Origin: Marinihelvus fidelis
GTDB taxonomy: Bacteria > Pseudomonadota > Gammaproteobacteria > Xanthomonadales > SZUA-36
Assembly (NCBI RefSeq): GCF_008725655.1
Contig: NZ_VYXP01000004.1
Coordinates: 51,346 to 115,345, forward strand
Length of the DNA: 64,000 nucleotides
Direction: 5' to 3'
The notes below the pieces were generated by a model. The model saw only the letters and a program-made list of their open reading frames with translations, did not search any database and was not told where the DNA came from. Position 1 is the stretch's first letter. Every line of letters starts with the position of its first letter. Below, in pieces: positions 49,057-51,880 of this stretch. The translations under genes and the position numbers were made by a program.

Positions 49057-50061
49057 TTACTGACGGATTGACCCCGTCGGCGAACCAAAGCGATCATCAA
49101 TGCCGATCGATCCGCCAACGCACTGGCCCGTAGCACCAGAAACCTTGACGTTATCAAACGACACAACTTCATAACCTGCTGAATCCAGAACGGAAACAGT
49201 CGCGGTGTTGCAGCCCAGGGTTACGGACATGTTCATCATGGTGCCGGCGGGAAGCGTAATGGAGATACCTTCAATTCCAGTACCACCACCTGCAACTTCG
49301 ATGCCCGTTCCGCCACCGGCAACGTGTACACCTGTTCCACCGCCAGCGACGCCCGTGCCACCGCCCGCGACTTGCACGCCTGTGCCACCACCGGCGACGC
49401 CCGTGCCACCGCCCGCGACTTGTACGCCTGTACCGCCACCAGCGACGCCCGTGCCACCACCGGCGACTTGCACGCCCGTGCCGCCACCGGCAACGCCTGT
49501 GCCACCGCCGGCAACTTGTACGCCTGTACCGCCACCAGCGACGCCCGTGCCACCGCCTGCGACTTGCACGCCAGTGCCTCCACCGGCAACCTTGAGGCCC
49601 GTGCCTCCGCCGGCAACACCCGTGCCACCACCGGCGACTTGCACGCCCGTGCCTCCACCAGCGACGCCTGTGCCGCCGCCAGCCACATCAAGTCTTGAGT
49701 CGCGACGCGTTGGCGTAACTTCAATTAGGGAAAGATTTCCTGACCCAGCGTCAATGCTGGAGAAACCGACGAAAATGCTTCCGTCGATGTGCCAGGATGC
49801 TGAAATTCGGTTGTTCTCAACCGAGATACTGAGATCGCCATTGGGGCTCAGTGAATCTGCATTTGCAGTACTCAGGAAACCAGCAGCAAAAAGTGCGCAG
49901 GCCAGAGCTGTCCGTCGGATGCCAGTTCCCGACTTTTCAATTCCAGTGCCATTCTTTTCAATGCCGGTGCCGCTTTTTTCGATACCAGTACCGGACTTTT
50001 CGATACCAGTGCCGCTTTTCTCAATACCTGTTCCGCTTTTTTCAATTAACCAACGAGTCAT
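49057..50061 (-). CDS. Exported Gly-rich repeat protein with VAGGGTG repeats
   Basis: 334 residues, no family recognised. Residues 6-47 are six tandem heptads IEKSGTG (one IEKNGTG). A signal-peptide-like segment follows (RRTALACALFAAGFLSTANA, about 49-68, likely cut after ANA). Residues 69-125 are a possible beta domain. Residues 126-264 are 17 copies of VAGGGTG, mostly alternating as 7- and 9-residue units (the extra pair is usually VQ). The C-terminal 70 residues hold two cysteines (LGCNTA, GQCVGG) that could form a disulfide. The repeat core is identical in all copies while codons vary. The ATG has AAGGAG upstream and overlaps the DUF6502 stop (ATGA), so the pair is coupled. Confidence 0.82.
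   Translation of the reverse strand: MTRWLIEKSGTGIEKSGTGIEKSGTGIEKSGTGIEKNGTGIEKSGTGIRRTALACALFAAGFLSTANADSLSPNGDLSISVENNRISASWHIDGSIFVGFSSIDAGSGNLSLIEVTPTRRDSRLDVAGGGTGVAGGGTGVQVAGGGTGVAGGGTGLKVAGGGTGVQVAGGGTGVAGGGTGVQVAGGGTGVAGGGTGVQVAGGGTGVAGGGTGVQVAGGGTGVAGGGTGVQVAGGGTGVAGGGTGVHVAGGGTGIEVAGGGTGIEGISITLPAGTMMNMSVTLGCNTATVSVLDSAGYEVVSFDNVKVSGATGQCVGGSIGIDDRFGSPTGSIRQ
49270..49686 (-). repeat. Coding repeat array: 17 VAGGGTG units
   Basis: A 417-base array inside the repeat protein gene made of 21-base and 27-base units, mostly in alternation as a 48-base higher-order unit. Synonymous differences are scattered across the units but the seven-residue core never changes. On the opposite strand it reads as a long Pro-rich open frame, which is only a shadow. 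Confidence 0.92.
49921..50046 (-). repeat. Coding repeat array: six IEKSGTG units
   Basis: Six tandem 21-base units encode IEKSGTG before the signal peptide of the same protein. Several units contain runs of five or six A residues. Gain or loss of a unit keeps the frame, so the copy number could vary between strains. Confidence 0.9.
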
Positions 50062-50933
50062 CTCATATCTCCTTCTTCATCAGTTTCATGACCGCCCCAT
50101 TGGTACCATCCGATACCTACAGTGAGTTGGCCTGGTTGCTTTTTTGGTTCCTCGAATTTCTCGAGTAGTTGCTCGCCTTCCTTGATTTGTTTTTCTAATA
50201 ACTGTCTAGCTTCCTTTCTAAACGATCTAAAGTTTTGTGGTGCCAGTCTGTAAGTCCATCGACCTTGCTGAGGAACGCGCCATTCAGGGTCAGTCTCCAT
50301 ATTGTGAATTGCGGCGCTAAGGACTCTTGAGGATTCGATGTAAGCAATGTCTGTCATTTTTGCTACATCATCTGAAACTGGTGAATACCAAGGGGACAGT
50401 AGCTTTACCCTCTCAACAGCACCAGATTGCAGTTGAACATTTCCGGAAGATACAACTCTGTCGAGCACGGTTTTAACAGTGATGTTTCGCCCAACAGATT
50501 TGAGAATCAGCCCCTGAAAGGTTCTGCCACGGCCTTCCACTGGCAGAATGGCGGGTTGACCAGTCTCATTATTCGAGAAAAATGGGTCGGTTGCCCACAT
50601 ATCCAAAAGAGCACTTTCGGCACAAATTTCATTGGGTTCAAGCTTTTTCTTAAACTTGTCTTGAAGAACCGAAGTAACTACTCGGGTATCTAAGCCCGTC
50701 ATTAGCGCTAGCGCGCTCTTTGTCGGCTTTTTGCCGTCCTTTGAGAGTTTCTTTTCCGCCTCTTCTACGTAAATGACCCGAATGAGATCCATGAGAGCGG
50801 AAAACGACAAAGTGCCGATCAGAAGACGAATTAGTCTTCTGAGCACCAATTGAACAGCATCAGCAACTGATGCGTATTCACCAGGGTTTGAATTCTGATT
50901 TTCCAGTGGTCTGCCCAACATTGGTTGCTGCAC
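50058..50933 (-). CDS. DUF6502 family protein
   Basis: 291 residues. The N-terminal part (VLRRLIRLLIGTLSFSALMDLIRVIYVEEAEKKL, then KKPTKSALALMTGLDTRVV) looks like the winged-helix-like opening of DUF6502 proteins, and LLDMWATDPFF with LPVEGRGRTFQGLI matches the middle of that family by eye. No enzyme motif is seen; a DNA-binding or regulatory role is possible but unproven. The C-terminus is Lys/Glu-rich coiled coil (about 235-275). The start is a GTG with GGGGA nine bases upstream. Base composition is clearly less G+C-rich than the flanks, suggesting transfer. It is translationally coupled to the repeat protein. Confidence 0.8.
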   Translation of the reverse strand: MQQPMLGRPLENQNSNPGEYASVADAVQLVLRRLIRLLIGTLSFSALMDLIRVIYVEEAEKKLSKDGKKPTKSALALMTGLDTRVVTSVLQDKFKKKLEPNEICAESALLDMWATDPFFSNNETGQPAILPVEGRGRTFQGLILKSVGRNITVKTVLDRVVSSGNVQLQSGAVERVKLLSPWYSPVSDDVAKMTDIAYIESSRVLSAAIHNMETDPEWRVPQQGRWTYRLAPQNFRSFRKEARQLLEKQIKEGEQLLEKFEEPKKQPGQLTVGIGWYQWGGHETDEEGDMR

Positions 50934-51215
50934 TCATTCCCCAGGGTTCGGGCGTCCGCAAGGGCGGAGCACCGCCACCCATGTCCGCTGTGTGGCGAAT
51001 GCGCTAACGACCGAAGTCCATCAATGTGCAAGCCTTGATGCCGCAGACCATCAAGTTCTTGGTTGGCGTTTTGGCCGTAGATCCGCTGAGGCCAGTGACG
51101 CCAAGTTATCAGGATAGCTACTTATTCAATAGCTTGCACGTAATTTTTTAACAAAGTTCGCTCCGATGTCACCTAAGTTTGGGTGGGTCGGTGCGGCCGG
51201 GAATTTGGCAGCGGG
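50934..51215. other. Non-coding stretch upstream of the DUF6502 gene
   Basis: I see no credible gene in these 280 bases. They contain an inverted repeat CTTGATG / CATCAAG (51034-51055) and A+T-rich tracts near 51115-51160 (for example a run of six T at 51144-51149), where the promoter of the DUF6502 operon probably lies. The ends of 51003-51070 can pair, but the match to integron attC sites is poor. Confidence 0.45.
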
Positions 51216-51567
51216 TTATAAAATAGGGCGCCTACACTCCATGTAGGCGCCCTGCACAGAGCGAAAGTGACGGAAACTTTCGCCTTTCCTTGAGCGTCCC
51301 TGCTCCAATTTGGCCGTCCTGGCCAGGATTTCCCACATCCGTATGTCGGGTCGAGGTCCTTGGTGAGTGCTTCGGCTACTGCGCGGTGACTGTCTTCAGT
51401 CACTTGCTTGAACCGGTGATGTTCCTTCCTTAGAACTGCGCTCATCTGTGTTCTCGACCCGCAACAACCGTCGTATTCGTTTTGCCTGGGACTTCAAGTC
51501 CCGTTGCTTCCCCGGATACATGTCCTTGACGCGTTTACATCACTTCCACGAATCCTTCAGAAATAAT
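51216..51567 (-). ncRNA. Candidate CsrB/RsmZ-type GGA-rich RNA (minus strand)
   Basis: About 350 bases on the minus strand carry 15 GGA motifs, roughly three times chance. GGA or AGGA lies in the loops of GTTC-TAAGGAAG-GAAC (51421-51436), TGGCC-AGGAC-GGCCA (51311-51325), GAGC-AGGGAC-GCTC (51292-51305) and the terminator hairpin (11-bp stem, loop TGGAG, 51226-51252), which is followed by TATTTTAT. An 8-bp long-range stem (51453-51460 with 51348-51355) closes part of the fold. This is the pattern of RNAs that sequester CsrA/RsmA. A possible -10 (TATACC, minus strand of 51574-51579) would start it near 51567. A 90-residue open frame overlaps it but looks unlike a protein. Confidence 0.5.
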
Positions 51568-51576
51568 TTATCAGGT

Positions 51577-51688
51577 ATAGCCACTAACGTCTATAGCCAT
51601 ATATGAAATTAGCCGCATCCGCACATAGCCGAAAATGTATTTAGACTTTTTTGTGTTTAGACACTTGTGTGTTTAGCCAAATGTGGCT
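51577..51688 (+). promoter_or_regulatory. Seven 16-bp direct repeats between two divergent RNA promoters
   Basis: The hexamer (A/T)TAG(C/A)C occurs at 51577, 51593, 51609, 51625, 51641, 51657 and 51673, exactly 16 bases apart each time. The 10 bases between hexamers vary. TAG is invariant and five of seven copies end in CC. Next to the last copy, TTAGCC-N6-GGCTAT forms an inverted pair that runs into the plus-strand -10. The array fills the space between the two predicted -10 boxes, so it looks like an operator for a regulator that controls both RNAs. The regulator is unknown. Confidence 0.75.
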
Positions 51689-51693
51689 ATACT
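51665..51693 (+). promoter_or_regulatory. Promoter of the plus-strand GGA-rich RNA
   Basis: TTGTGT (51665-51670) and TATACT (51688-51693) are 17 bases apart and predict a start near 51700. The -35 is weak, which fits dependence on an activator bound to the repeats that overlap it. Confidence 0.6.
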
Positions 51694-51699
51694 TGTTTT

Positions 51700-51880
51700 C
51701 AACGAGGGACGAAAAGGGCACGGATCGCCTTTTTCAGCGACGCAGGAAGCGTTGTTTGGCAGATGGATTTGCGGGACGAAGGAATCGTCTTGACCTCGGC
51801 GCAAGGAGGCAATTCGCGGGTGGCGACACGTCCGCAGAGCGGTTTGGGGCAGTAAGGATGCTGCCCCGGCCGCTTTTTTT
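51700..51880 (+). ncRNA. CsrB/RsmZ-type CsrA-sequestering RNA (plus strand)
   Basis: A transcript of about 180 bases with eight GGA motifs. Several lie in loops of clear hairpins: CGACGC-AGGAA-GCGTTG (51738-51754), GCAGA-TGGA-TTTGC (51759-51772), GACGA-AGGAA-TCGTC (51775-51789) and the terminator hairpin with TAAGGATG in its loop. AGGA in a hairpin loop is the known CsrA/RsmA binding signal, and RNAs built like this (RsmX/Y/Z, CsrB/C) titrate CsrA. It has a promoter just upstream and a strong terminator. Short open frames crossing it are not convincing. csrA is not in the window. Confidence 0.72.
51839..51880 (+). terminator. Rho-independent terminator of the plus-strand RNA
   Basis: An outer stem GCGG / CCGC and an inner 7-bp stem GGGGCAG / CTGCCCC (51846-51867) precede seven T residues at 51874-51880. 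The T run also supplies the TAA stop codon of the dioxygenase gene on the other strand, so the two units abut exactly. Confidence 0.85.

Follow-up and report, generated by a model that had tools for sequence, protein, structure and literature searches.

A conserved dyad array between predicted divergent promoters of two Csr/Rsm-sponge-like RNAs in Marinihelvus fidelis

The locus studied here raises the question of what a hexamer repeated at a strict interval between two divergent promoters is for, and which protein reads it. It lies in a stretch of 64,000 nucleotides from Marinihelvus fidelis (the whole stretch analyzed, hereafter the window). The seven (A/T)TAG(C/A)C hexamers reported for positions 51577-51688 were confirmed. 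The units started at 51577, 51593, 51609, 51625, 51641, 51657, and 51673, in exact 16-bp steps with zero slip, and their hexamers were, in order, ATAGCC, ATAGCC, TTAGCC, ATAGCC, TTAGAC, TTAGAC, and TTAGCC. The array, to which no strand was assigned, occupied 51577-51689, the last dyad ending at 51689. A chance origin of the seven-unit periodicity was excluded by simulation: the longest 16-bp chain of TAG was three in 20,000 simulated 250-nt sequences of the local composition, and the longest TAGMC chain was two across 100 simulated 64-kb windows. Furthermore, the scan of the whole 3.43-Mb genome that had been suggested gave the array locus as the sole match of the three-unit pattern.

The comparison of 117 units from 21 genomes indicated that each unit was an imperfect dyad with the consensus TAG[AC]CA-N4-TG[TG]CTA and with the reported hexamer as its stronger half-site. 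T2, A3, G4, and C6 were invariant, in agreement with the original observation that TAG never changes, and position 5 was A or C. The bases in between had been described as varying freely, which was contradicted by the data. Position 7 was A in 83%, position 12 was T in 75%, position 13 was G in 93%, and position 16 was T in 81% of these units, and the spacers are therefore part of the imperfect dyad rather than free. The second half of the dyad was strong in the two terminal units (GTCTATA in the first, TGGCTATA at the other end), whereas the middle units had a weaker one. Neighboring hexamers had been thought to face opposite sides of the helix; the period of about 1.5 turns stood, but the hexamer as the binding unit did not. 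Since the predicted binding unit is the dyad, neighboring dimer sites would be rotated by about half a turn, with alternate dyads on one face. Such a rotation suits cooperative filling and is compatible with it rather than proof of it.

The locus was recovered throughout the same GTDB family by a DNA search with the region. When 22 good genomes from this uncultivated family of the Xanthomonadales were searched with a four-unit pattern, 20 were found to carry the array (four to seven units, one per genome, at the same locus); the family members seen were all MAGs. The array-bearing genomes represented 12 of the 14 genera, always with the array in the same place. In the alignment of related genomes, which had been proposed as a check, the hexamers and their spacing were kept while the centers diverged. 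Thus, the view that the repeats reflect conserved contacts and not a recent duplication was upheld, and the comparison across the family bore out an operator-like array between divergent promoters. No real four-unit match occurred in about 360 genomes from other families of the same order, the matches in three other-family genomes being merely 8-bp TTAGCCC simple repeats. In addition, no further arrays or two-unit operators were detected in the family genomes beyond the array locus, and the phage contigs searched contained no tandem dyad. The named records with a related promoter pattern were MAGs labeled Lysobacterales, Xanthomonadales, Oceanospirillales, or Gammaproteobacteria, including isolate SZUA-36. 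One relative (G027) possessed six near-identical units, a sign that the unit number may grow by duplication.

Both ends of the array merged into predicted promoters. The right promoter (51665-51693, plus strand) had the -35 element TTGTGT (51665-51670), a 17-bp spacer, and the -10 element TATACT (51688-51693), with a start predicted near 51700; unit 6 contained the -35, and unit 7 filled the spacer. Apart from the two of the genus g8, every relative kept it as TTG[TC]G[TC]-17-TA[TA]A[ACG]T, whereas the same positions in the inner units were variable. The left promoter (51565-51593, minus strand) had the -35 element TAGACG (51593-51588), a 17-bp spacer, and the -10 element TAAATT (51570-51565), which was preceded by TGA (TGA-TAAATT, 51573-51565), with a start predicted near 51558. 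Its -35 and most of its spacer were covered by unit 1, whose right half, when read on the minus strand, was TAGACA or TAGACG, and TTGACA in three loci (L114, L115, and L120). The left -10 was assigned to TAAATT because the relatives lose TATACC yet keep TAnnnT at 17 bp; TAnnnT was found 17 bp past the left -35 in 19 of 21 loci. Two similar -10 regions had originally been proposed to bound the block. This was right for the plus strand, where GGCTATACTTG is the half-site GGCTA fused to the -10 TATACT, but not for the minus strand, where GGCTATACCTG is mainly the half-site GGCTA and the conserved -10 lies a few bases beyond it. Judged by their elements, both promoters are sigma70-type and divergent, and the terminal dyads overlap their -35 and spacer regions.

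The predicted right transcript was a Csr/Rsm-sponge-like RNA of about 180 nt (51700-51880, plus strand), whose GGA motifs were located in hairpin loops and which was closed by an intrinsic terminator with a GGA loop (51839-51880). Its fold had a z of -4.0. Among 18 genomes, 28 pairs were conserved and 15 of these were changed on both sides, compared with a shuffled mean of 6.4, and 96.4% of the alignment cells could pair, compared with 33-47% in slid controls. In the genus g8 (L119 and L122), the right GGA RNA was not recognizable, though the array and the left small ORF were kept. One hairpin of the right RNA, GCGGGUGGCGACACGUCCGC (window 51816-51835), was nearly invariant and lacked GGA, while the surrounding GGA hairpins drifted; this hairpin may bind something other than CsrA.

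The left RNA, also Csr/Rsm-sponge-like, was predicted to be about 340 nt long (51216-51558, minus strand), with 15 GGA and a GGA-loop terminator at 51253-51225 that recurred with a changed stem in relatives. It folded better than shuffled sequences (z -5.4). The 3' ends of the left RNA were highly diverse among the relatives, and the covariation support therefore comes from the right RNA alignment only. In several relatives (L013-L021, L057, and L059), the left transcript opened with a small ORF (MYWVIHY... or MLYVLHH...), and the MLYVLHH-type ORF carried VE[KR]xGTGI, the motif of the neighboring GTG-repeat protein. A promoter-like block on the minus strand, GTGCAAG...TTGAATAAG...CTATCCTGA (window 51109-51139), was conserved in relatives and sits between the left terminator and the DUF6502 gene described below.

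In well-studied Gammaproteobacteria, the level of sponge RNA is set mainly by GacA/UvrY activation. The genome encoded one CsrA (E 5.2e-24), and both RNAs had the traits expected of a sponge RNA, with multiple GGA in a structured, terminated transcript: the right RNA through its covariation and GGA loops in 18 genomes, and the left RNA through its GGA richness, its fold, and its GGA-loop terminator. Several GGA in hairpin loops together with an intrinsic terminator are shared with RsmW, RsmY/Z, CsrB/C, and RsmU. Both RNAs thus look like CsrA/RsmA sponges, and CsrA would be sequestered by them. No Rfam family reached its gathering score; RsmW (RF02809) gave a weak match of 25.5 bits (E 0.085) compared with a gathering score of 52 bits. 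Membership in a known RNA family, RsmW included, was rejected, with scores below every Rfam threshold. RsmU derives from a 3'-UTR and is restricted to Xanthomonas, and in the paper describing it no Xanthomonas genome was found to have a homologue of the classical sponge RNAs (PMC7694677). Unlike RsmU, the pair studied here is divergent, self-standing, and family-specific.

The UvrY/GacA box is TGTAAG-N6-CTTACA. GacA/UvrY activates the sponge promoters known from Csr/Rsm systems (PMC4682653), acting at one or two 18-bp elements located far upstream (PMC4682653, PMC4950607). This box was absent from all 21 loci, in which the best match was 7-8 of 12 positions, at or below the shuffled mean. The array was therefore distinct from the GacA site, as had been stated at the outset, and the identity of the locus as a GacA/UvrY-controlled promoter was rejected because the 18-bp element was not present. 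The csrB/csrC and rsmX/Y/Z promoters would still be comparable, with a regulator that binds dyads ahead of genes for CsrA-sequestering RNAs, whose output sets free CsrA. The difference is that here both core promoters are traversed by four to seven dyads of another, 16-bp kind, with no GacA box. A tandem dyad of the same kind was found in Sphingomonas sp. CFBP 13720 (L087 4432-4477), where two to three TAGACA-N4-TGTCTA dyads with an exact 16-bp period lie over a promoter directly upstream of a hicA-hicB pair. That operator controls a toxin-antitoxin pair in a bacterium of another class. Identity with a HicAB operator was rejected, as the neighbors of the array are DUF6502, the GTG-repeat protein, and 3-HAO, with no hicAB gene.

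One-mismatch dyads elsewhere in the genome were all but one inside long open frames and were dismissed. The exception was the single dyad TAGACTTTTTTGGCTA (G000:C6:64346-64361; L102 1501-1516), just past one gene and about 100 bp ahead of the small ORF MDVANDLKPTLLLALAIFLASAPNPD. In each of the six genomes of the genus (L214-L219), an orthologous dyad matched at 11 of 12 positions and lay between -97 and -109 relative to the ORF, while its centers had diverged among the six. The leader after this dyad was GGA-rich, and the GGA were folded into hairpin loops in several of the six genomes. The array regulator may also control this CsrA-type leader.

We propose, with moderate confidence, that the array is a cooperative and probably repressive operator array through which a dedicated regulator sets the output of the Csr sponges. 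A sequence-specific protein, probably a dimer, would bind each 16-bp dyad, and adjoining dyads would be filled cooperatively. Occupancy of the terminal dyads, which cover the -35 and spacer at both promoters, would most likely silence both: polymerase would be excluded from the two promoters together, and the inner dyads would bridge them. As occupancy would exclude polymerase, the output of sponge RNA, and hence free CsrA, would depend on the regulator. With the array occupied, few sponge RNAs would be made and CsrA would be free; with the array empty, many would be made and CsrA would be titrated. Repression is suggested, though not proved, by the position of the dyads. Two observations count against this reading, namely the array of the genus g8 with no recognizable right GGA RNA and the small ORF at the start of the left transcript in some relatives.

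The position of the dyads also bears on the opposite sign of control. The array might be an activator-binding region in a GacA-like role, the bound dyads recruiting polymerase to two weak promoters. This would fit the right -35 (TTGTGT/TTGCGT), which is far from the consensus, and also the GacA/UvrY activation of the known sponge promoters (PMC4682653). We regard activation as rather unlikely, because a protein bound in the -35 and spacer of both promoters should block polymerase, and because spacers of 17 bp on both sides make a MerR-type spacer activator unnecessary. An alternative sigma factor might otherwise recognize the dyads as its promoter elements, given that TAG[AC]C...GGCTA occurs at the -35/spacer of three promoters; the five inner units without a promoter partner, and the sigma70-like -35 and -10 at both ends (TTGACA in three loci), render this very improbable. 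Hardly credible is a functionless, neutral tandem repeat (minisatellite), which would account for the variation from four to seven units and for the six near-identical units in G027, but not for half-sites that stay invariant, with drifting centers, at a single location in genomes of 12 of the 14 genera.

For a repressive operator array, the candidate regulator is the neighboring DUF6502 protein (50058-50933, minus strand; Pfam PF20112, E 3e-17), to which the Pfam match, a structural model, and synteny point. Its AlphaFold2 model (mean pLDDT 80) contained an HTH (72-91) and a winged HTH (139-178). Wherever the contig extended far enough, DUF6502 was the conserved HTH-bearing gene next to the array, and the recognition helix of the array-linked protein differed from that of other DUF6502 members. 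Of the 23 array genomes, 22 had the syntenic-type gene, and the remaining one stopped at a contig edge; among 16 array-less assemblies the gene occurred once, cut by the contig end. These counts are confounded by linkage and by incomplete assemblies. On these grounds, DUF6502 is put forward tentatively as the likeliest candidate, at somewhat less than an even chance. About as likely, and in our estimate close to an even chance, is the same operator function with an unlinked regulator, such as an XRE/HicB-type or ribbon-helix-helix protein. The Sphingomonas hicAB promoter indicates that another protein can use such dyads, and dyads were not found at DUF6502 loci in other families, nor at DUF6502 paralogs within the family. 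Moreover, one genome (G004) keeps the dyad of the second target, though its fragmented assembly yielded no DUF6502. The constant linkage of DUF6502 to the array and its distinctive recognition helix argue against an unlinked regulator.

Compared over its whole length with PDB structures, the DUF6502 model matched HetR best (Foldseek E 1.1e-5; VIA Z 8.8, rmsd 9.5, 207 residues). For a second model, of a canonical DUF6502, HetR topped the VIA list (Z 7.6, rmsd near 10), with no significant Foldseek match, and a profile search of PDB sequences gave no HetR link to DUF6502, although a more distant relationship may exist. DUF6502 is thus weakly HetR-like by its predicted fold, and since a sequence link and Foldseek support for the second model are missing, the likeness is a lead and not a membership. 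The two systems, HetR being that of heterocystous cyanobacteria, may resemble each other in the model fold match and in G[ST]G-containing peptide motifs; they differ in that no sequence similarity was found between HetR and DUF6502 and in that HetR reads GGG-N5-CCC sites (PMC4192349), unlike the dyads here.

The gene of the GTG-repeat protein (49057-50061, minus strand) overlaps the DUF6502 stop. Its product carries tandem IEKSGTG heptads at the N-terminus as well as a segment resembling a signal peptide and GGGTG repeats, and repeated IEKSGTG/IERDGTG was found in the DUF6502-adjacent protein inside the family. Outside the family, DUF6502 was followed by a G[ST]G-motif gene in 25 of 27 loci (Gammaproteobacteria), with GGIGGTGIS after the lipobox in DUF5666 lipoproteins. 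The order of DUF6502 and then a predicted exported G[ST]G protein, often with overlapping stop and start (window 49057-50933; loci L123-L152), together with the HetR-like model, recalls HetR with its RG[ST]GR peptides. It is conceivable, but quite unlikely in our judgment, that DUF6502 proteins are proteobacterial HetR-like, peptide-responsive regulators paired with exported G[ST]G proteins, one of which binds the array and links a peptide or envelope signal to Csr via the twin sponge RNAs, with no GacA input there.

Each component, whether operator array, Csr sponge RNA, or divergent promoters, is of a known kind. The papers searched contained no description of the combination, in which a four- to sevenfold dyad array instead of a GacA box covers two divergent sponge promoters and a further site is conserved elsewhere; DUF6502 did not turn up in the literature search, and DUF5666 appeared in passing mentions only. 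How active a global post-transcriptional regulator is depends on Csr/Rsm sponge RNAs. At this locus two sponge-like RNAs, both structured and conserved, appear to lie under a multi-site operator different from that of GacA, in an order for which RsmU alone had been described. The array can be used as bait for finding its regulator. It also singles out as a probable DNA-binding regulator DUF6502, a family of unknown function that is widespread in Gammaproteobacteria and has a conserved partner gene. In several relatives, TCAGGAGACTGA, which contains GGA in a possible hairpin, lies immediately before the DUF6502 start, as if DUF6502 were itself under the control of CsrA.
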